From the NCBI GenBank assembly GCA_031291675.1, contig JARLIO010000059.1, forward strand, positions 1 through 64,000: 64,000 nucleotides of DNA, written 5' to 3'. Source of the stretch: Azospirillaceae bacterium. Its GTDB lineage: Bacteria; Pseudomonadota; Alphaproteobacteria; Azospirillales; Azospirillaceae. This document shows positions 13,500-55,494 of this stretch, piece by piece (the stretch's first letter is position 1; the number at the start of each line of letters is the position of its first letter). A model generated the notes under the pieces. It saw nothing but the letters and a program-made list of their open reading frames with translations, ran no database searches and had not been told where the DNA came from. The translations under genes were made by a program, and so were the position numbers.

Positions 13500-13742
13500 A
13501 TGGAAACCGCGAAGATCTTCATGAACGGCCGATCCCAAGCCGTTCGTTTGCCGAAAGGGTTTCGGTTCGATGCGACCGAGGTTCGCATCCGCCGGCATGG
13601 GAATTCCGTCATCCTGGAGCCAATCCCCAACGATTGGGCGTGGCTCGACCACGTTGTCGGCGCCGTTGATGAGGACTTCGCGCGCGCGGTGACCGAGCAG
13701 CCACCGGCCCCGGATCTCCCCGAATTGGATTTTTTCGGTTGA
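13500..13742 (+). CDS. vapB: VapB-type antitoxin (SpoVT/AbrB swapped-hairpin domain)
   Basis: An 80-residue antitoxin. The N-terminal DNA-binding half reads METAKIFMNGRSQAVRLPKG, then FRFDATEVRIRRHGNSVILEP, the standard VagC/VapB pattern. The acidic C-terminal tail (about 50-80) should wrap the toxin. Its stop overlaps the vapC start by four bases (TTGA), indicating coupled translation. An inverted repeat just upstream is the likely autoregulatory site. The module sits between two IS630 remnants, in keeping with mobility. Confidence 0.92.
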   Translation: METAKIFMNGRSQAVRLPKGFRFDATEVRIRRHGNSVILEPIPNDWAWLDHVVGAVDEDFARAVTEQPPAPDLPELDFFG

Positions 13743-14131
13743 GATACCTCCTCGACAGCGACGCCGTAATAGCCGTCCTGAAGGGTCATCCGGGGTTCAT
13801 TGCCCGCCTGCGGCAACACCAACCGTTTGACTTCGGGGTCCCCGCGATCGTCGCACATGAGTTGTTTTACGGAGCCTGCAAGAGTCAGCATCGGACAGAA
13901 AATGTTGCACGGGTCGAGGCTTTGCAATTTGAAGTTCTCGACTTCGATCGCGAAGACGCCCGCCAGGCCGGGGAGATCCGGGCGACCCTGGCCGCCGCCG
14001 GCACGCCGATCGGCCTCTATGACGTCCTGATCGCCGGCCAGGCTGTGGCACGCTCGTTCATCCTGATCACGCATAACACCCGAGAATTTGAGCGGGTGGC
14101 AGGGCTTTGCGTGGAGGATTGGGAGCTGTGA
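13739..14131 (+). CDS. vapC: VapC-type PIN-domain ribonuclease toxin
   Basis: A 130-residue PIN-domain protein. The acidic residues that bind Mg are visible: Asp in LLDSDAVIAVL, Glu in IVAHELFYGA, Asp in GLYDVLIAGQA, and the distal NTREFERV. VapC toxins cut specific tRNAs or rRNA when released from VapB. Translation appears to begin with TTG at 13739, overlapping the vapB stop; there is no later start that keeps the first Asp. Length is normal for the family, so the toxin looks intact. Confidence 0.92.
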   Translation: MRYLLDSDAVIAVLKGHPGFIARLRQHQPFDFGVPAIVAHELFYGACKSQHRTENVARVEALQFEVLDFDREDARQAGEIRATLAAAGTPIGLYDVLIAGQAVARSFILITHNTREFERVAGLCVEDWEL

Positions 14132-43824: not shown

Positions 43825-45705
43825 ATGTCCCCGATCCGCCGAGTTCGCACCCTTGCCCCGCTGCTGATTGGCCTGTTCATTCTCGCGGCGGCGGCGGGCT
43901 CTGCGGGCTATCATCTGAGCCTGTCGATGGGATTGGCCGCATTGCAAGCGACCGGTCGCCATCGGCTGGATCTTTATACCACAAGCCTTGAACGTGAAAT
44001 CGACAAATACGCTTATTTTCCGGCCACTCTGGGGCTGGAACGGGATGTCATCAAACTTCTGAGCGGACCCGGTACGGTTGCCATGGTCGAACCGGTCAAC
44101 AGCTACCTGGAACAACTCAATCAACGCGCCGGGACCCTGGCGATCTATGTTCTGGATCGGCGCGGGGTGGTCCTGGCTTCCAGCAACTGGCGGCAATCCG
44201 ACAGCTTCATGGGCGAAGATCTGTCCTATCGGCCCTATTTCAAGGACGCCGTCAACCGAGGTTCCGGACGATTCTTCGGCATCGGCACAACGCGGGGTGA
44301 GCCCGGCTATTATCTGTCCTCGGCCCTTATCAGCGGCAGTGATCTGGTGGGCGTCGCCGTCGTCAAGGTCAGTCTGGAGCAACTGGAAAAATCGTGGGAT
44401 CTCGTCGAGGCGCCGGCGCTGGTTGCGGACGAAAACGGTGTGGTGATCCTGGCCTCGGTCCCGACGTGGAAATTTACCACAGTCCGGCGGCTCGACGACA
44501 AGACCCGCCGTCTTTTTGACCAGACTCAACAATATAACCGGCGCGCTTTGTTGCCACTGGAGGTCCAGCAAAACCGCCGTCTCAGCGATACCGCCAGTCT
44601 GGTGCATCTGTCAGGCAGCGGAGCCGACCCGGCATCCGTGTTTCCGGTCTCCGGCCAGTTTCTCGCCCAAACCCAGCCTCTGCCGGGAATGATGTGGAAT
44701 CTGACCGTGTTTTCCCATCGGGAACAGATCGACAGCATGGCCTGGAGCCACGCCGCCCTGGCCGCGATCGGCAGCGCATTTCTGGCGATCCTGCTGGTCC
44801 TGGTGAACCAGCGAAATCGCCATCAGCGTGATCAGCTGGCCGCGCGCGAAGCCTTGCAACGGGCCCATGATGACCTGGAACGCAAGGTGGAAGAACGCAC
44901 CGCCGACCTGTCAGCCACCAATGCCCGCCTTCAGGAAGAGGTGATCGAGCGAATTCGCGCGGAACGCACCTTGCGGGCCGCGCAGGACGAGCTGGTGCAA
45001 GCGGGCAAGCTGGCGGTGATCGGCCAGTTGTTGGCCGGCATCGCGCACGAGTTGAACCAGCCTTTGGCCGCGATGCGGACCTTATCCGGCAACACGGTGA
45101 AATTCCTTCAACGCGGCGACGTCGAAACGGCCCGCCTGAATCTGGGCCGGATCGACCAATTGGTCGATAGCATGGGAACCTTGACCGGCCAGCTCAAATC
45201 TTTCTCGCGAAAGTCGTCGGGCCGGCCGCGCCCGGTCCCGGTGCGTCGCGCTATTGACAATGCGCTGGCGTTGCTCAATCAAAGAATGCACCGTGCGAAC
45301 ATCAAAGCGCGTATCGAGATGCCCGATGCCGGGCTTTGGGCCTTGTGCGATCCCAATCGTCTGGAACAGGTGCTGGTCAATCTGATTGCCAACGCCCTTG
45401 ACGCCATGGAGGGCTGTTCGGATCCGGCGCTGGAACTGCGCGGCGAACGCGATGGCGAACGGGTTCGCATCAAGGTGCGCGATCATGGTCCCGGTCTGGC
45501 CGATGATGTCAGAAGCCACCTGTTTGAACCCTTTTTCACCACCAAGGACGCCGGCGGCCTCGGGCTCGGACTTGTCATCTCGTCAGGGATCGTCCGCGAT
45601 TTCGGCGGCACGCTCGCCGGCGACAACGATCCTCAGGGCGGCGCGGTGTTCACCCTGGACATTCCGCTCTCGCCGGATGGAGAAGACGAATGCCGGAAGA
45701 GATGA
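43825..45705 (+). CDS. DctB-like sensor histidine kinase
   Basis: A 626-residue membrane kinase. Two helices (about 12-35 and 310-330) enclose a periplasmic tandem-Cache domain with GTLAIYVLDRRGVVLASSNW, SYRPYFKDAVNRGSGRFFGI, GEPGYYLSSAL and LVADENGVVILAS, as in DctB. A coiled-coil linker follows, then the phospho-acceptor His408 in GQLLAGIAHELNQPLAAMRT, and the ATPase motifs LIANALDAME, DHGPGLADDV and FEPFFTTKDAGGLGLGL. The ligand is probably aspartate, asparagine or a C4-dicarboxylate. ATG 43825 is preferred; GTG 43801 is possible. It overlaps the regulator gene by 16 bases. Confidence 0.92.
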   Translation: MSPIRRVRTLAPLLIGLFILAAAAGSAGYHLSLSMGLAALQATGRHRLDLYTTSLEREIDKYAYFPATLGLERDVIKLLSGPGTVAMVEPVNSYLEQLNQRAGTLAIYVLDRRGVVLASSNWRQSDSFMGEDLSYRPYFKDAVNRGSGRFFGIGTTRGEPGYYLSSALISGSDLVGVAVVKVSLEQLEKSWDLVEAPALVADENGVVILASVPTWKFTTVRRLDDKTRRLFDQTQQYNRRALLPLEVQQNRRLSDTASLVHLSGSGADPASVFPVSGQFLAQTQPLPGMMWNLTVFSHREQIDSMAWSHAALAAIGSAFLAILLVLVNQRNRHQRDQLAAREALQRAHDDLERKVEERTADLSATNARLQEEVIERIRAERTLRAAQDELVQAGKLAVIGQLLAGIAHELNQPLAAMRTLSGNTVKFLQRGDVETARLNLGRIDQLVDSMGTLTGQLKSFSRKSSGRPRPVPVRRAIDNALALLNQRMHRANIKARIEMPDAGLWALCDPNRLEQVLVNLIANALDAMEGCSDPALELRGERDGERVRIKVRDHGPGLADDVRSHLFEPFFTTKDAGGLGLGLVISSGIVRDFGGTLAGDNDPQGGAVFTLDIPLSPDGEDECRKR

Positions 45706-47033
45706 AGGTCCTGATCGTCGAGGACGATCCCAACGTTCTCTTTGGCTGCGAGCAGGCGCTTCAGTTGGAGGGGATCCTCACCAAAGGCGTCGACACGGCC
45801 GAAAAGGCCCGCCGTCTGGTGTCGGTGAATTTTCCCGGCATCGTCGTCAGTGACATTTGCCTGCCCGGCGTTGACGGCATGGTCCTGCTGGGTCAATTGC
45901 GGGCCATGGACCCCGATTTGCCGGTGGTCCTGATCACCGGGCATGGCGATATATCGCTGGCGGTCCAGGCGATGAAGAGCGGCGCTCATGACTTCATCGA
46001 AAAGCCGTTCGATCCCGACTATCTGGTCGAGGTGGTACGCCGCGCGCTCGACAAACGCAGACTGATTCTGGAAGTCCGCGATCTGCGTGAAAAGCTGCTC
46101 AACCGCCAGAGCATCGACGCGCGAATTCTCGGCAACTCCCCGGCGATCGAGCGGGTCCGCCGGCTGATCGTCGATCTGGGCAGTTCGGCCGTCGATGTCC
46201 TGATCCAGGGCGAGACCGGCGCCGGCAAAGAACTGGCGGCCCGCTGCCTGCACGACGCCAGCCCGCGGCGCAACGGAAACTTTGTGGCGATCAATTGCGG
46301 CGGCCTGCCCGAAACCTTGTTTGACAGCGAAATCTTCGGCCATGAGGCCGGGGCTTTCACCGGTGCCGGCAAACGCCGGATCGGCAAGTTCGAGCATGCC
46401 AGCGGCGGTACGCTGTTTCTCGATGAAATCGAATCCATGCCCCTGGCGATGCAGGTCAAGATGCTGCGGGTCCTGCAGGAAAGAACGCTGGAGCGGCTGG
46501 GCTCCAACACCCCGATTGCGGTGGATTGCCGGGTCGTTGCCGCCACCAAGGTCGATCTGCGCGAATTGATCGATCGCGGGCAATTCCGCGCCGATCTCTA
46601 TTACCGGCTGAACGTCGTCACGCTTCCGTTGCCGCCGCTGCGCGACCGGCGGGAGGATACGCCGCTGCTGTTCGAGCATTTTTGCATGCTGGCCGCCGCC
46701 CGTCACCAGCGGGAAATCCCGAGTGCCGACGCCGGACGGATCCGGCAGTTGATGGCCTATGACTGGCCCGGCAATGTGCGGGAGCTGCGCAATGTCGCCG
46801 ATCGCTGCGTCCTCGGCATCGAAAGTGGCTTTCCGCCCTTCGGCACACCGGCCCTGCCCGGACCGCGCCCATTTGCCGAGACCGTCGAAACCTTCGAGCG
46901 GTCACTGATCGCTGATGCCTTGCGGCGAAGCCGCGGCAACCTGACACGGACCAGCGAGGATCTGCAATTGGCGAAAACCACGCTCTACGACAAGATTCGT
47001 AAATACGATCTGTTGGCCGAGGTCGCCCGATAG
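45690..47033 (+). CDS. NtrC-family response regulator (DctD/AauR-like), sigma-54 activator
   Basis: A 447-residue regulator: receiver domain (1-120) with KVLIVEDDPN and phospho-acceptor Asp55 in VVSDICLPGVDGM; AAA+ domain with Walker A QGETGAGKEL near residue 171, an intact sigma-54 contact loop in GHEAGAFTGAGKRR, and TLFLDEIESMP; a C-terminal Fis-type helix-turn-helix NLTRTSEDLQLAKTTLYDKI. ATG 45690 has GGAG seven bases upstream; ATG 45702 (ATGA overlap with the kinase stop) is the alternative. With the upstream kinase it should drive the sigma-54 promoters before ansB and aspA, as AauRS does in Pseudomonas. Confidence 0.93.
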   Translation: MPEEMKVLIVEDDPNVLFGCEQALQLEGILTKGVDTAEKARRLVSVNFPGIVVSDICLPGVDGMVLLGQLRAMDPDLPVVLITGHGDISLAVQAMKSGAHDFIEKPFDPDYLVEVVRRALDKRRLILEVRDLREKLLNRQSIDARILGNSPAIERVRRLIVDLGSSAVDVLIQGETGAGKELAARCLHDASPRRNGNFVAINCGGLPETLFDSEIFGHEAGAFTGAGKRRIGKFEHASGGTLFLDEIESMPLAMQVKMLRVLQERTLERLGSNTPIAVDCRVVAATKVDLRELIDRGQFRADLYYRLNVVTLPLPPLRDRREDTPLLFEHFCMLAAARHQREIPSADAGRIRQLMAYDWPGNVRELRNVADRCVLGIESGFPPFGTPALPGPRPFAETVETFERSLIADALRRSRGNLTRTSEDLQLAKTTLYDKIRKYDLLAEVAR

Positions 47034-47117: not shown

Positions 47118-47277
47118 CTGCAGGACCTCACCCGGCCGGTAATCAACGCCGCAGGGAAGCTGACCCGCGCCCCACGGCAAAAGCCCGCGACACGGCGCTG
47201 CAAATTCCGCTGGCCCTTCCGTTATGTTTGTCCGAATATAGCGATATTCGACAGCAATCGGGGGAAGGAGCCGCGCC

Positions 47278-48567
47278 GTGGCATTATCGGGATTGGTACG
47301 GGTCCAGCAACGATCCACCGACGAAGCGCCCTTCGTGCCATCCTTCGGTGCCGGCCCCAGCGCCGAGGAACTGACCGCTTTGCTCGAGGCCCCGGCGCGC
47401 CGGCGCACAAGGCTGTGCGATTTGTCCCCTAACCTGCACTGCTCGATCGTCGGCACCTGCCTGTCGACCGGGGAACTGCGTTCGATCGTGGCCAAGGCCA
47501 TGGGCCGGGATGTCAAGACCCTGACCGACCACGAGATCCATGGCGAAGGCGTGCTGCTGGCCCAGCGGCGCGATCCGATGGGCAAGCTGTTGCACAAGGC
47601 GCTCGACAAGCGTCACCAGCTAGCCATCAACCAGTTTGCCCGGGCGACCACCGCCGACGCGGTCGCCGCACTCTGGGCCGCGGCCAAGCGCGCCGGCGAG
47701 ATTCCCGGCGGCTATTGGGCCGTACTCAGCCACCCGGCGACGACCGAGGCGGTTGCGCAGGCGGCTTTCGCCGATGTGCACATGCTGTCGCATCTGGTCG
47801 GCGCCGCCAACCGCGCCGATATCCGCCGCCTCGCCGCGCTGGAACAGGAACGGGCGGCACTGGAACAAAGGCTCGAGGCGGCCCAAAGCGAGCTGCAAAC
47901 CGCCCGGACCACGATCCGGGCGCTGGAGACCACGCTGGCCGAAGCCGCAGCGGGCCGCGCGACCAAGGCGACCCAAGCGACGCCGGACGCCGCCGAGACC
48001 GGTTTGCTGCGTCAACGGATCCTTGAGCTGGAGGATCGATTGCGCGTGGAAACGGCGCGCCGCTGCCGCGCCGAGGATCTGGCCGGGCCGATCCGCCAAA
48101 GCGAAGCCGCGGCGGAGGAAGCGCGCAAGGCCGCGGAGGATCGCGCCGCCGCCCTGGCCCAGGAACTGGCCGCGCTGGAGGCGCAATGGCACAGCGACGC
48201 CGACGCCCCCGGGGCACAGGTCGAGACCCGATGCCTGCCCGTCGGGGTGTCCACCCTGCTCTATGTCGGCGGCCGGCCCAATCAGGTCCATCGGCTGCGC
48301 GATTTCGCCGCGCGGGCCGGGATGACCCTGCTGCATCATGATGGCGGTTTCGAGGACCGCCCGGGATTGCTCGCCGGCCTGGTCAGCCGTGCCGATGTCG
48401 CCTGCTTTCCCGTCGACTGCGTCAGTCATGATGCCGTCGCCGCCGTCAAGCGCTTCTGTCGTCAGGCCGCCAAGCCCTATCTGCCGCTGCGCAGCGTCGG
48501 CCTGGGCTCGTTCATGGCCGGTTTGGCCCGGCTGGCGACGCGGCCGCCGGACGGGCCCGAAAGCTGA
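47278..48567 (+). CDS. DUF2325 domain protein with central coiled coil
   Basis: A 429-residue protein. The N-terminal half is helical with three cysteines near residues 47-60 (LCDLSPNLHCSIVGTC). A long Ala/Glu/Arg-rich coiled coil covers about 175-310 (ALEQERAALEQRLEAAQSEL and following). The C-terminal DUF2325 domain reads STLLYVGGRPNQVHRLRDFA, DRPGLLAGLVSRADVACFPV and SVGLGSFMAGL. DUF2325 is uncharacterised; it has a Rossmann-like pattern. GTG 47278 has AAGGAG eight bases upstream. The stop overlaps the next ATG, so it is translationally coupled to a radical-SAM-like protein. Confidence 0.85.
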   Translation: MALSGLVRVQQRSTDEAPFVPSFGAGPSAEELTALLEAPARRRTRLCDLSPNLHCSIVGTCLSTGELRSIVAKAMGRDVKTLTDHEIHGEGVLLAQRRDPMGKLLHKALDKRHQLAINQFARATTADAVAALWAAAKRAGEIPGGYWAVLSHPATTEAVAQAAFADVHMLSHLVGAANRADIRRLAALEQERAALEQRLEAAQSELQTARTTIRALETTLAEAAAGRATKATQATPDAAETGLLRQRILELEDRLRVETARRCRAEDLAGPIRQSEAAAEEARKAAEDRAAALAQELAALEAQWHSDADAPGAQVETRCLPVGVSTLLYVGGRPNQVHRLRDFAARAGMTLLHHDGGFEDRPGLLAGLVSRADVACFPVDCVSHDAVAAVKRFCRQAAKPYLPLRSVGLGSFMAGLARLATRPPDGPES

Positions 48568-49403
48568 TGACCGCGCTCCGGTCCCGGCCACTTGGCGACG
48601 CGCGGATACCACGGTCCGCGCCGGTGATCCCTCTTGACCGGCTGCGGACCCTGTGGGTCGACACCGGGACGGCGCCCGCCGATACCGATGACGCGGCCAC
48701 CGACGCCGATGATGGCCTGGCCTATTTCCGACTGCGGGATCTCGAACCCTATCTCACGGAAATCGAACAGGAACAGCTCGGCACCGAGGAGGTGCGCTTT
48801 GTCGGCGGCGCCCCCTTCCGCAACCCCCAACTGCTGCCGATGCTGGCGGCCTGCATCGACCGCGACTTGCAGGTCACGGTCAGCCTGGACGATATCGGTA
48901 CCCTCACCCGGCACGCCGGATCACTTCTCGAATTCGGCCTGTGGCACGCCGACGCCCTGACGATCACGCTCAGCCTGCCGCACTATTCGCAGGCGGGATA
49001 CGAGGCCCGCCGGGGGCCCGGAAGCTGGCAACCCCTGCTGGACGCCCTGACCTGGCTGGCCTGTCACGGCTTTCGGCTGAGCATCACCGGTGATCGGTGG
49101 CAGGAGACACGGGAGGTCGCGCGGCGCGGCTTCGCCGCCTTGTTCCGGGCGCTCGACGTCCCGGTCGATGTCGAAGATCCGCAGCAGTTCCTGTGGGCAC
49201 CGGATCGCCACAGCCGCGGCCCGGTTCCGACCTGCCGCTGTGGCCGCGCCGTCGCCCGGCGCTGGGACAGCGGCCAGCGCGTCGTCCGCGCCTGCCCGTT
49301 CCTGCCGACCGGCCAGGCGGTGGAATTCGGCGCCGGACTGCGCAGCGCCCAGGCACCGGTAAGGCTGGACCGGCCGGGCTGCGCCGGCTGTTTCCCGCCC
49401 TGA
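48567..49403 (+). CDS. Radical-SAM-like protein lacking the [4Fe-4S] cysteine motif (pseudoenzyme)
   Basis: A 278-residue protein resembling radical SAM enzymes of the LRTLWVNTGT-type. It keeps PLDRLRTLWVDTGT (22-35), a GG-x-P-F loop as VRFVGGAPFRNPQLLPML (76-93), and the repeated beta/alpha pattern. The region where CxxxCxxC should stand (36-50) is APADTDDAATDADDG, without any cysteine, and the conserved Glu of GGEPF is Ala. C-terminal cysteines TCRCG, RACPF and GCAGC remain and may bind metal. So classical radical chemistry is not expected. ATG overlaps the DUF2325 stop (TGATG). Confidence 0.72.
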   Translation: MTALRSRPLGDARIPRSAPVIPLDRLRTLWVDTGTAPADTDDAATDADDGLAYFRLRDLEPYLTEIEQEQLGTEEVRFVGGAPFRNPQLLPMLAACIDRDLQVTVSLDDIGTLTRHAGSLLEFGLWHADALTITLSLPHYSQAGYEARRGPGSWQPLLDALTWLACHGFRLSITGDRWQETREVARRGFAALFRALDVPVDVEDPQQFLWAPDRHSRGPVPTCRCGRAVARRWDSGQRVVRACPFLPTGQAVEFGAGLRSAQAPVRLDRPGCAGCFPP

Positions 49404-49419: not shown

Positions 49420-50625
49420 TCAGACCACCGCCGCCGGCTGGGTCCGCGGCAGGGTCAGGCTGAACAGCAGCGCCACGATCAGCATGGTCCCCGACCACCA
49501 AGTCTGCCAGATGCCGTAGCTGGTCCAGACCATGCCCAGGAACCCGGCGATCACCGCGACACCGCACTCCCGCTGTGGCGACGGCAGGCGGCCGACGCGA
49601 TACCAGACCAGCAGACTGAACCCCAGGGCCAGGGCGGCGCCGACGGCACCGAGTTCGAGCCACACCTGCAAATAGGCATCGTGGGGATGGACCGGCATGA
49701 CCTGCGCCTGTTCCCAGGGCAGCAGCGTCACGACCTCGTGAACCCCCGGCAATGTCCGCGAACCGTCGAGCCCCCAGCCCAGCCAGGGCCGTTCCAGGGC
49801 GCGATGCGCGGCAAAGCTCCAGATCTCGGCCCGATGACGCATCGACATCGTGATATCGGGATCGGTGCGCAGCCCCAGCGCCTGAAACGACAGCGCGATG
49901 GGCAGAGCGGCAACGAAGACGATGACGATCACCGCCCCCAGCCCACGCCAGGCCAGCCGCGGCCGCACCAGCATCGCCGCGCACGCCGCCAGCGCCAATG
50001 TCGAGCCCAGCTTGGCTGATTTGCTCTCGGCGCCGATCTGCACCAGCCACAGCGCCACCGGCAACACCGCCGCCAGCCAGCGCCAGCCCCGGTGCCACGC
50101 CAGCGCCACCGCAACCCACACCAGGGCCGAGAGCACGACCATGTTGCGGTCGATCAGCACCAGATTATCGAAATCATTGGCTTTGAGCCGGAGCGCGTAA
50201 TGCACCAGCAGATGGTCGTAGACATTGAGCGCGGTCACCAGGGCCGCGACCCCGACCCCGGCCAGGAACGCGCTGCCGACCATCCGGCGCTGCCAATCGC
50301 TGGTGTCACGGGCCACCCCGAGAAACCACACCGCCGGGATGAAGGTGTAGCTGAGCTGCCAGGCCTGGGTCCAGGCGCCGCGCGGCGTCGCCGCCCACAA
50401 GGTCGAGGCCCAGCCCCAGCCCAGGAACACCAGCATCAGCCCCATCAGCACGGGATCGGGCCGGGACCAGTAGCCATCACGCCAGCGCGCCACCGCGATC
50501 CCCAGCACCGAGGCCACGATCAACAGCGGCGCCTCGCCCACCGGGGCCGTCGCGGCGATCACCGGGGCCAGAAAGGCGAAAGCCGCCAGCACATCATCGA
50601 GCAGCCGATCAGGCGTAACACGCAT
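49420..50625 (-). CDS. O-antigen ligase family membrane protein
   Basis: A 401-residue polytopic membrane protein with about ten helices. The Wzy_C/O-antigen-ligase region includes RPWLGWGLDGSRTLPGVHEV, PVHPHDAYLQVWLELGAVGAA with the conserved His in the large periplasmic loop, and membrane segments such as LAWRGLGAVIVIVFVAALPI. Members join polysaccharide chains to lipid A core or polymerise them in the periplasm; which applies here is unclear. It is a single gene, convergent with the radical-SAM-like gene and 96 bp from aguA. ATG 50625 is the first start with membrane homology. Confidence 0.85.
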   Translation of the reverse strand: MRVTPDRLLDDVLAAFAFLAPVIAATAPVGEAPLLIVASVLGIAVARWRDGYWSRPDPVLMGLMLVFLGWGWASTLWAATPRGAWTQAWQLSYTFIPAVWFLGVARDTSDWQRRMVGSAFLAGVGVAALVTALNVYDHLLVHYALRLKANDFDNLVLIDRNMVVLSALVWVAVALAWHRGWRWLAAVLPVALWLVQIGAESKSAKLGSTLALAACAAMLVRPRLAWRGLGAVIVIVFVAALPIALSFQALGLRTDPDITMSMRHRAEIWSFAAHRALERPWLGWGLDGSRTLPGVHEVVTLLPWEQAQVMPVHPHDAYLQVWLELGAVGAALALGFSLLVWYRVGRLPSPQRECGVAVIAGFLGMVWTSYGIWQTWWSGTMLIVALLFSLTLPRTQPAAVV

Positions 50626-51950: not shown

Positions 51951-54374
51951 ATGTCCCGCAACCTCATTCCCTTGGCGACGCTGGCCGTTTCGGCGGCGCT
52001 GACGGCGACGGGCAATCCGCTCGCGGGAGCCGTCGCCGGCGGGCTCGCCGGGAATCTCGCGACCGATTTATTCAAGTTTCTGCATCGGCGAGTCGGCGAA
52101 CGCTTCTTCGATGGCTGGTCGGGTGTCGACGAAAATCACCATGTCACCCGGGCTTTGCGCCTGGCCCAGATCAACGCGCTGCGCGCGGTCCTGACGGACT
52201 TCACCGCCGCAACCGCGGGCGACCCGGATATCGCGCGCCAGCACGAAGCGCGGCGCTTCACCGAGGTCCTCACGGATTTCCTCGATCGCGAGACCAAGGC
52301 GGCGCAGGCCGGCGCATTCACCGCGGATGAGGATCGCGCCCAGGCGATTCGCTATGAGGTGCTGCAGGCCTTGCCGGATGCCTTCGACCAGGGTCTCGCG
52401 GCACGACGGACGGCGCAGGATCGTCCGGCCATCCTCGATAGCCTGAAACAGGTTCAGACGGTGGTCGAGGCCGGCGTCCTGGCCGAGATCCGGCTCCAGA
52501 CGCTGGGCCCGGATGGCGCGACGCACGATCGCTTTGCCGGGTTTCCGCCCATGTTCGGGGCGTGCTTTGCCGGCACGGATGACCGTGATGGCTGGTTCGG
52601 CCTGTTCGTCCGCGATGCCGCGGCCAAGATCAAGGACGATGGCGAATTCGAGCGCATCTGGAATGCCGAGCAGGTCGCACTGGTCAAGGCGATTGTCCAG
52701 GCCGACACGGAGGTGCTGCAAGAGATCGCGGCACGGGTTCAGCGGATCGAGACCATCCTGGGCGCGCCGCTGCGTTCGGGCGTGACCCCGGTCGCCCGGA
52801 ACGCGGCCTCGATTCGCAATCGCCCCACCGATCTGCTGGTCGCGCGCTATCGGGTGATTCCCTACATCGATCGCGGCGGCGTGTTGCAAGAGGCGCTGGC
52901 CTGGGCGCGGTCTCCTGAAACGCCGTTGCCACAAGGCCGGCTCTATGTCGCGCCCGGCGGTTTCGGCAAAACGCGCTTTGCCATCGAGATGCTGCGGACG
53001 CTGGTCGACGAGCACTGGACCGGCACCTTTCTGTCACCGAACAATACCGCCAATCTTGGGCCGGGCGCGCTGGCCAGCGTAATGGCCGAGCCCGGGGTGA
53101 CCGGCTGCCTGATCATTGTCGACTACGCCGAAAGCCAGATCGCGCTGTTGCAACAACTCGCCGCGGCCGCGGCGGCCGCGGAGACGGCAACGCCGATCCG
53201 CATCCTGGCGCTGGCGCGCTCGGCCGAAGGCTGGTGGCAGGGCCTCCAGACCCATGAGGGTATCGCCACGGTGTTTGTCGGTCCGGACCCGATCGCGTTG
53301 ATTGACCGGCCCCTGGACGCGGCGGAACGGACCCTCTTCCTTGACACCGCGATTGCCGCCTTCCAGAACGCGTTCGCCGCGGTCGGGCTGACGACACCGC
53401 CGGCCGCGCCGCTGCCGATCATTGGCCGGGACGATGACCGGCCGCTGACCGTGGCGATGGCGGCTTTCCTGGCGGCCCGCGGCAACGCCCCAACCCCGGG
53501 CCTCAGCGTCTTCGAACGGATTTTCATCGAGGAACGCAACAATTGGAAGCGCGTGTTGCACGCGCAACGGGACAACGAGCCGGCGGTGGACTCACTGCAT
53601 CGCGCCGCGGCCCAGATCACCCTGGTTCAGGGCGCAACCCGCGCCGGGGCCGCGGCCTTGATCGACGCGGACCCGCACCATCGTGGATACGATGCGGCGG
53701 CGCGGGATCAATCCCTGGCCAGCCTCGAAATCCTTTTTGGCGCCGACAACGGGGAAAGCCTGTTCCTGCGGCCGATCGAACCGGACCTGCTCGGCGAACA
53801 TGTGGCCATGGCCGCGCTGGGGCCAAAGAACAACGGATTGATCGAGGCCACCCTGACCACGGCACTGTCCGAACCATCCCTGTTCCCTCAAGCCGTCGCG
53901 GCGATCTTCACCGTCCTGACGCGCGCCACCTATGACGGGCACGATGCCCGGACGGTTGCCACAGCAAAAGCGGCGATCGACCGGACCTGCCCGGTGATAT
54001 CGGGTTTGGATGGCGCCCAAGTTCGGCGGGTCGAAGCGTCGCTGCCGCGGTTTGCCGTGCCGCTGACGCGCCTTGCACTTGCCGTGGCCCATCGGGTCGT
54101 TGACACCTGTGAGAATGAACCCGAACTGGCGCGCGCGCTCAGCAACCTTGCCGTTTGCTTGAGCGAGACCGGGGATCGCTCCGGGGCGTTGACGCCGGCC
54201 CGCCGCGCCGCCGAGATCTACCAGGCGCTGGCGCAGGACAACCCGGCGGCCTTTCTGCCCAGTCTGGCCGGCAGCCTCGGCAACCTCGCCTATTTCCTGA
54301 ACGAGACAGGGGATCAATCAGGAGCCGCGGCGGTAGCCCAGCGCGCCGCGGAGATCAGAGAGAAGCTGGTGTAG
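51951..54374 (+). CDS. STAND-type P-loop NTPase with short C-terminal TPR repeats
   Basis: An 807-residue protein. N-terminus: a Gly/Ala-rich hydrophobic stretch (LAGAVAGGLAGNLATDLFKF) and a helical domain of unknown family. The NTPase core has Walker A GGFGKT at 336-341 and Walker B LIIVDYAES starting at 387, followed by a helical region rich in Ala/Leu. Residues 721-807 form about two TPR-like units (ALSNLAVCLSETGDRSGALT and GNLAYFLNETGDQSGAAAVA), much fewer than usual, so the array may be truncated. GGCGAGG precedes ATG 51951. STAND NTPases act in signalling, including phage defence (Avs) and cell death; which applies here is unknown. Confidence 0.78.
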   Translation: MSRNLIPLATLAVSAALTATGNPLAGAVAGGLAGNLATDLFKFLHRRVGERFFDGWSGVDENHHVTRALRLAQINALRAVLTDFTAATAGDPDIARQHEARRFTEVLTDFLDRETKAAQAGAFTADEDRAQAIRYEVLQALPDAFDQGLAARRTAQDRPAILDSLKQVQTVVEAGVLAEIRLQTLGPDGATHDRFAGFPPMFGACFAGTDDRDGWFGLFVRDAAAKIKDDGEFERIWNAEQVALVKAIVQADTEVLQEIAARVQRIETILGAPLRSGVTPVARNAASIRNRPTDLLVARYRVIPYIDRGGVLQEALAWARSPETPLPQGRLYVAPGGFGKTRFAIEMLRTLVDEHWTGTFLSPNNTANLGPGALASVMAEPGVTGCLIIVDYAESQIALLQQLAAAAAAAETATPIRILALARSAEGWWQGLQTHEGIATVFVGPDPIALIDRPLDAAERTLFLDTAIAAFQNAFAAVGLTTPPAAPLPIIGRDDDRPLTVAMAAFLAARGNAPTPGLSVFERIFIEERNNWKRVLHAQRDNEPAVDSLHRAAAQITLVQGATRAGAAALIDADPHHRGYDAAARDQSLASLEILFGADNGESLFLRPIEPDLLGEHVAMAALGPKNNGLIEATLTTALSEPSLFPQAVAAIFTVLTRATYDGHDARTVATAKAAIDRTCPVISGLDGAQVRRVEASLPRFAVPLTRLALAVAHRVVDTCENEPELARALSNLAVCLSETGDRSGALTPARRAAEIYQALAQDNPAAFLPSLAGSLGNLAYFLNETGDQSGAAAVAQRAAEIREKLV

Positions 54375-54527: not shown

Positions 54528-54767
54528 TCACATCCCCTCATCCCGCGCCTCGCGCAGCAGTTCTGTGCTCGGCCGGCTCAGACTTGGCATGGTGGCGCGG
54601 AATGCGGCCAGATCGTCCCATCGCAGCGAATGCTTCGGGCGCAGGGCGGAACGGATAGGAGCGACAGCACGACCGCGGCGGGTAATGATCACCTCTTCAC
54701 CCGCCGCCACCTTGTCCAGCAACGCGCTCAGCTGTGCCTTCGCCTGGGTCCGACTGACCGTCACCAT
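54528..54767 (-). CDS. Phd/YefM-type antitoxin without an intact toxin
   Basis: A 79-residue antitoxin: VTVSRTQAKAQLSALLDKVA, then GEEVIITRRGRAVAPI (Phd/YefM fold), and a toxin-binding tail with LRPKHSLRWDDLAAFRATMP. ATG 54767 opens the conserved domain; the frame is open to 54851 without homology. The toxin gene that should follow is reduced to a 20-codon remnant. It is on the same strand and 88 bp downstream of the vapBC pair, and may still influence related modules by DNA binding or as an anti-addiction factor. Confidence 0.85.
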   Translation of the reverse strand: MVTVSRTQAKAQLSALLDKVAAGEEVIITRRGRAVAPIRSALRPKHSLRWDDLAAFRATMPSLSRPSTELLREARDEGM

Positions 54768-54854
54768 GGCAGCCGCAGCGATGGCCACGAAATTGGTCAC
54801 AACATAGCGGAAAGCCATCGCCATGGCGATGAACCCGCGGACGCGCGCCACTGC

Positions 54855-55259
54855 CTACGCCTCGGGGGCGATCAGCTTGAGGGAGGGGAAATAGGTCCGA
54901 TAACGTCGGACGTCGCGGGTCAGCAGCGGCATATCGGCAACGACCGCATGCGCACCGATGAAGAAGTCAGGAAGCACACCGTTGCGCGCGCCGCCGGCCG
55001 CGCGGTAACGCTGGAACACTTTGCCTGCCAGGAACAGGGCCGGGCGCGGCATCAGCGCCAGCGTGATCCCGGCCTCGTCGAGGGTGTCGTCGAGATCCTC
55101 GATGCGGTCGAAACGAACCGACAGCTCGGCATAGACGACGTCATTGATGATCAGCGGCCCCTGGAGCGACGCGGCATCCAATTGCCGGATCGACCACGCC
55201 ACCCAGACCGGATCGTCGGTCACCAGATCCAGCAGCACGTTGGTATCGATCAGGGTCAC
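54855..55259 (-). CDS. vapC: VapC-type PIN-domain toxin
   Basis: A 134-residue PIN protein with LIDTNVLLDLV (first Asp), INDVVYAELSVRFDRIEDLD (conserved Glu), GVLPDFFIGAHAVV (third acidic group) and LLTRDVRRYRTYFP. The LPDF-IGAHA form is typical of VapC paired with AbrB antitoxins. The start is GTG at 55259, one base after the antitoxin stop. The four acidic residues appear intact, so it is probably an active Mg-dependent RNase. Confidence 0.92.
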   Translation of the reverse strand: MTLIDTNVLLDLVTDDPVWVAWSIRQLDAASLQGPLIINDVVYAELSVRFDRIEDLDDTLDEAGITLALMPRPALFLAGKVFQRYRAAGGARNGVLPDFFIGAHAVVADMPLLTRDVRRYRTYFPSLKLIAPEA

Positions 55260-55260
55260 A

Positions 55261-55494
55261 TCACCCCTCGCCGCGGGTCAGCGCCATGATCTCGTCGGTG
55301 CTGAGCCCCTTGCCCGCGCGCCCGCGCAATGCCGCGAAGCGGTTCGTCGGACGGTCGCCATCAACCTTGACCAGAACGACGCGGCCATCCGCCGCCAGTT
55401 CGAATTCGACGGCGCTGCCCGTCTCGATCCCAAGCCGCTCGCGCACCGGCTTGGGAATGGTGACCTGACCCTTGCTGGTAACCGTGTTGGCCAT
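55261..55494 (-). CDS. vapB: AbrB/MazE-type antitoxin (VapB)
   Basis: A 77-residue antitoxin with the classical AbrB swapped-hairpin sequence NTVTSKGQVTIPKPVRERLG, followed by VEFELAADGRVVLVKV, and a C-terminal toxin-binding tail (PTNRFAALRGRAGKGLSTDE). It lies one base upstream of the vapC start, so translation is coupled. An inverted repeat TACCGA/TCGGTA 15 bp upstream is a likely operator. The module lies just beside the STAND NTPase region. Confidence 0.93.
   Translation of the reverse strand: MANTVTSKGQVTIPKPVRERLGIETGSAVEFELAADGRVVLVKVDGDRPTNRFAALRGRAGKGLSTDEIMALTRGEG

Follow-up and report, generated by a model that had tools for sequence, protein, structure and literature searches.

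A candidate radical-SAM-derived pseudoenzyme encoded in overlap with a DUF2325 gene in an alphaproteobacterial genome

Introduction

In a 64,000-nt stretch of an alphaproteobacterial genome (hereafter the window), a gene for a DUF2325 protein is followed by one for a 278-aa radical-SAM-like protein that lacks the cysteines of the cluster site. The question raised by this locus is whether the second protein is a remnant in decay or has been kept for a use other than radical SAM chemistry. Radical SAM pseudoenzymes are hardly described; a full-text literature search gave incidental mentions only and nothing for wordings of the "pseudo-rSAM" type, and no description of this 278-aa protein was found in the literature. 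A protein that has lost the complete catalytic apparatus and kept its hydrophobic core would help to show what a half-barrel can be used for without a cluster, and it would represent a new kind of radical-SAM-derived adaptor if an adaptor role is true. DUF2325 itself, a domain of unknown function, is widespread, and the molybdenum and iron genes often found near it provide a separate testable lead. The case has the limited value of a single example from one genome only.

Organization of the Locus

The source genome (5.87 Mb in 99 contigs) is the sole representative of its genus among those searched and contains NifQ (found by Pfam) and nifDKEN-like genes (recognized by eye). The two-gene unit described in an earlier sequence-only reading was recovered as two intact, overlapping frames on the forward strand. 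ORF1 (47278..48567; 429 aa) starts with GTG at 47278 and ends with TGA at 48565-48567, and ORF2 (48567..49403; 278 aa, without internal stop) starts with the ATG inside a TGATG overlap (48565..48569). This overlap, which is of the type associated with termination-reinitiation, and the AAGGAG ribosome-binding site of ORF1 (47265..47270; 7-nt spacing to the GTG) were both read directly on the same strand. Given the TGATG, translational coupling of ORF2 to the DUF2325 gene is highly probable, as had been proposed. Upstream of ORF1 is a two-component pair (43825-47033), and a convergent gene ending at 49420 lies downstream of ORF2. No promoter or terminator was found in a consensus scan of the locus. 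The GC3 values are 0.82 for ORF1 and 0.83 for ORF2, compared with 0.72-0.88 for the other genes and an intergenic G+C of 0.58 in the window. Elsewhere in the window, the product of positions 51951-54374 (807 aa) has a P-loop-like region and seeming C-terminal repeats; by eye it is NTPase-TPR-like and could act in defence or signalling. Small gene pairs that resemble antitoxin/PIN-type toxin modules by eye (13500-14131 and 54528-55494) are present on both sides of the locus.

The ORF1 product consists of a His/Cys-rich N-terminal domain, a coiled coil, and a C-terminal DUF2325 domain. The conserved N-terminal domain (approximately residues 43-180; 47404..47817) was delimited in an alignment of 20 homologues and had no match in the Pfam search, and the coiled coil (approximately residues 184-306; 47827..48195) has weak matches to filament and SMC coiled-coil models only. 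The DUF2325 domain (PF10087; residues 327-417; 48256..48528, all on the forward strand) was found by Pfam with an E value of 8.7e-14 and a score of 51.9 bits, above the gathering cut-off of 33.6, which places the protein in the family and bears out its earlier description as a DUF2325 protein. It is fairly well kept, with 68 of the 98 positions conserved among 20 homologues retained. Every His conserved in these homologues and all but two of the conserved Cys are present (H54, C55, C61, H88, H168, H172, H353, H354, C381, H384, and C394). Of 82 genomes of the order, 36 contain a homologue of this protein; homologues also occur elsewhere, and the closest orthologue, in genome G432, is 64% identical. 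In another genome of the genus of G432 (G355; loci L295/L292), the DUF2325 gene is apparently broken by a stop codon. The source genome has a second, short DUF2325 protein (a 143-aa frame; G000:C87:1882-2160, loci L278 and L281), the domain score of which is above that of the window copy.

Homology and Loss of Radical SAM Motifs

The Pfam Radical_SAM model matches the ORF2 product weakly (E = 0.0014, under the cut-off). Full-length homologues were found in ~30% of the class genomes sampled (115 of 385), in 15 of 59 relatives, and, within the order, in 15 of 82 genomes, all three counts including the source genome itself. The best matches have E values of 3e-43 to 2e-44 with identities of at most 40%, and the homology to an intact radical SAM family spans residues 8-275. 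By these comparisons the radical SAM resemblance is real homology, with chance ruled out, and the ancestry proposed earlier is upheld by these full-length homologues. The best NCBIfam models of this family are NF049973 (Rv1681-family) and TIGR04167 (ArsS), both below cut-off. The intact family is widespread in Proteobacteria (loci L198-L277 and L098-L117), with no NCBIfam model above cut-off. A search for closer relatives of the 278-aa protein in the order, in the samples of the class and the phylum, in the orders of the nearest matches, and in GTDB contigs found none; a plasmid search gave nothing closer, with one 33% match, and a PDB sequence search gave chance ETS-type matches only. No intact or active paralogue was found in the source genome. 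The placement of the window copy in a tree is uninformative, as its end branch has 8.4 changes per column.

The segment LRTLWVDTGT, the Asp/Ala-rich run at residues 36-50 without cysteine, and the cysteine pairs CRCG (223-226) and CAGC (272-275) are all present as first described. Residues 36-50 (APADTDDAATDADDG; 48672..48716, forward strand) replace the cluster loop CNxxCxxCYIESSPxND, are four residues shorter, and are predicted to be disordered (pLDDT ~51). None of the three cluster cysteines remains. The pentapeptide at residues 80-84 (48804..48818, forward strand) is GGAPF, and every other family member has GGEPF. Among members gathered without motif selection, TGGEPF is found in 129 of 129 other sequences (one or two genes being entered twice) and CxxxCxxC likewise in all. 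Three rows in this motif count read "none", namely, the window copy and two longer-frame readings of one gene that has the motif further along. Sixteen further members have intact motifs, bringing the total to about 143 other genes, all with CxxxCxxC and GGEPF; a set of 80 loci chosen by motif patterns was excluded as evidence on motif conservation. The loss of the cysteines and of GGEPF is as originally stated. The conservation of the cysteine-free form, which the same reading had proposed to survey, was not found, and the window copy stands alone among approximately 144 family members.

The motif loss is wider than the cysteines noted earlier. Residues 136-140 (48972..48986, forward strand) read SLPHY, in which the Asp of the family SxDHY is lost, and the LTNAM strand and the AGR motif are gone as well. 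Two C-terminal deletions remove 17 and 8 residues. Of the 98 family positions with conservation of 90% or more, 37 survive in the window copy, compared with 96 in the median member. The C-terminal region (49233..49391, forward strand) retains four of the six family cysteines (C223, C243, C272, and C275) and has a new one (C225), and the remaining family cysteines lie in the deletions. This retention contrasts with the zero of three at the cluster site, and four of six alone is not significant. With CxxxCxxC (or a known variant of it) and the GGEP-type SAM amino-group motif both absent, the window protein lacks what defines the radical SAM enzyme class and cannot be a canonical member of that class. 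As for the homologous fold that defines the superfamily, sequence homology is present, and so is a partial (beta/alpha)6 barrel in a model that leans on the alignment.

Two other readings bear on these losses. One is that the protein is still an enzyme by unusual chemistry, in which a cluster or metal bound by the C-terminal cysteines has taken on a new reaction on the old barrel. The five cysteines C223, C225, C243, C272, and C275 do remain and the barrel is predicted to persist, but the SAM-binding GGEP, the Asp of SxDHY, AGR, and LTNAM are gone and no known radical SAM active site is left, so we consider this highly improbable. The other is an assembly or sequencing artefact, given the low complexity of loop 36-50, a run of Asp, Ala, and Thr, and the reliance on a single assembly. 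However, the substitutions extend across the whole gene, the frame is intact, and the contig is at least 64 kb long, which makes an artefact barely credible. A frameshifted cysteine loop was also considered; the other frames, inspected by eye, have no cysteine motif.

Predicted Structure

AlphaFold2 with 61 homologues predicted a partial TIM barrel for the 278-aa protein (pLDDT 85, pTM 0.84), in which residues 41-46 of the former cluster loop fall below 50 in pLDDT. The non-barrel fold that would have told against a radical SAM origin thus did not clearly appear in the proposed structure-prediction check. The best structural match of this model in the PDB is BlsE (Z 16.2 over 226 residues), and the further matches, namely, SuiB, SkfB, PqqE, MoaA, and viperin, are all radical SAM proteins. 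The high confidence leans on an alignment that consists of intact enzymes, and for this reason the sequence was also folded alone as a weak control. This prediction had a pLDDT of 43 and placed the strands and helices of residues 75-196 in the same order and register, with low confidence. Taken with the homology, it is supported that the window protein descends from a radical SAM enzyme with its frame intact and most of the fold kept.

Retention or Decay

Because there is no sister genome, a neutral simulation was used in place of dN/dS, in which intact genes were evolved neutrally to comparable divergence (150 runs per setting for stop codons). In 1-5% of the runs, the frame still had no stop codon. 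The family has 67 core columns with an almost invariably hydrophobic residue, and 57 of these (0.85) are hydrophobic in the window copy. The neutral value was 0.61 +/- 0.05 with a maximum of 0.76 (n = 300), and a control with realignment to the family gave 0.675 +/- 0.047 with a maximum of 0.82 (n = 144), so that none of the 444 neutral runs matched the window copy. In addition, all three indels of the window copy are in frame.

These results bear on the possibility that ORF2 is a decaying radical SAM remnant that is still open by chance in a G+C-rich genome. Such openness does arise in the 1-5% of neutral runs mentioned above, all homologues are intact enzymes, and the cysteine-free form is known from one copy. 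Against this, the core hydrophobicity is above all 444 runs, no indel breaks the frame, and GC3 shows no relaxation toward the intergenic G+C of 0.58. Simple decay is disfavoured on these grounds, and we regard it as unlikely. The earlier reading had held that close homologues with an intact motif would point to simple decay; the homologues are indeed all intact, but their identity does not exceed 40%, and the window copy appears constrained beyond neutral decay. Together, the open frame, GC3, core hydrophobicity, and in-frame indels favour retention of the protein on account of its fold once its chemistry had been lost, although they do not replace dN/dS and are no proof. The retained pseudoenzyme proposed originally is likewise favoured, short of proof, by homology, motif loss, frame, and constraint.

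Genomic Context of DUF2325 and Proposed Role

A radical-SAM-like neighbour was found at none of approximately 40 other DUF2325 loci inspected, with a family HMM included in the search, and no DUF2325 gene was found within 4 kb of any of 80 intact radical SAM loci. At the closest DUF2325 orthologue (G432), the downstream gene is an unrelated one. The pairing is therefore not conserved at the approximately 40 other DUF2325 loci, and on these counts it appears particular to the lineage of the window. This pattern would be expected of a retained pseudoenzyme unrelated in function to DUF2325, placed behind the DUF2325 gene by accidental insertion. However, the 1-nt TGATG overlap and the GC3 values of 0.82 and 0.83 suggest co-translation and long co-residence, and we hold accidental insertion to be a less probable account, if a serious one. 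We infer a DUF2325 partnership from the coupled overlap, which is its sole basis.

The neighbours of other DUF2325 genes suggest, without proving, a role of the long DUF2325 proteins in molybdenum or iron handling. One long-DUF2325 locus contains NifQ, DUF2478, a ModE-type TOBE regulator, and a SBP_bac_11 (ModA-type) binding protein, and at other such loci MoeA, SBP_bac_11, Mo-hydroxylase, or CoxG genes adjoin. Molybdenum-linked neighbours recur at the long-form loci L086, L308, L310, L312, and L313. In four genomes (loci L030, L032, L033, and L034), a FUR-type regulator lies at most 20 nt downstream of the long DUF2325 gene, with its identity confirmed by Pfam in one of the four, and at least one of them has a DUF2218 gene upstream; these neighbours suggest iron regulation.

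The intact radical SAM family has other neighbours. Glycosyltransferase genes are nearby in many family loci (TIGR04283-like in 24 of 100 and TIGR04282-like in 19 of 100), and both models are named by NCBIfam for arsenosugar biosynthesis. Other neighbours include folE, apaG, and metZ, with folE/apaG near about a fifth of the loci. None of these partner genes adjoins the window locus, and for this reason the ancestral reaction is little guide to the present role.

On balance, we lean toward a retained pseudoenzyme derived from a proteobacterial radical SAM enzyme, most likely a non-catalytic partner of the DUF2325 protein. The ancestor would have belonged to a family nearest the Rv1681 and ArsS models and would have lost the [4Fe-4S] cluster site, the SAM-binding motif, and most active-site residues while keeping the half-barrel fold and the C-terminal cysteine site. 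Through the TGATG overlap, the 278-aa protein would be made in step with the DUF2325 protein, and its barrel may serve as the binding surface in a putative physical partnership. The regulatory or scaffold role first suggested is hypothetical. The remaining C-terminal cysteines may bind a metal, either Zn or a single Fe-S cluster, or form a structural cross-link, and the pair may have a place in molybdenum or iron handling. Since molybdenum or iron genes often lie beside DUF2325 relatives and the C-terminus has kept four of its six cysteines, a metal-binding partner is our best guess for the role. The fuller proposal, a radical SAM enzyme turned into a dedicated non-catalytic and possibly metal-binding subunit of the long DUF2325 protein in a molybdenum/iron homeostasis complex, is speculative and unlikely.

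Comparison with Known Systems

BlsE, SuiB, PqqE, MoaA, and viperin share the partial TIM barrel with the model of the window protein (Z 13-16 over ~200-226 residues), but they are active [4Fe-4S]/SAM enzymes, unlike the window protein, and their identity to it is below 20%. The intact alphaproteobacterial radical SAM family has the same predicted fold and the four retained C-terminal cysteines, and differs in having CxxxCxxC, GGEPF, and SxDHY, in lacking the two C-terminal deletions, and in its operon. The window DUF2325 protein has its domain in common with Campylobacter Cj1384, which has been tied to oxidative stress and for which metal or redox binding is suspected (PMC9426514); it differs from Cj1384 as a long form, in which a His/Cys-rich N-terminal domain and a coiled coil are also present. 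A precedent for a protein of the kind encoded by ORF2 is provided by TIGR04347 (pseudo-SAM/SPASM), a NCBIfam model named for radical-SAM-derived pseudo-SAM proteins. The window protein has no match to this model and its intact relatives match weakly, so that the window protein has an origin separate from that of TIGR04347.
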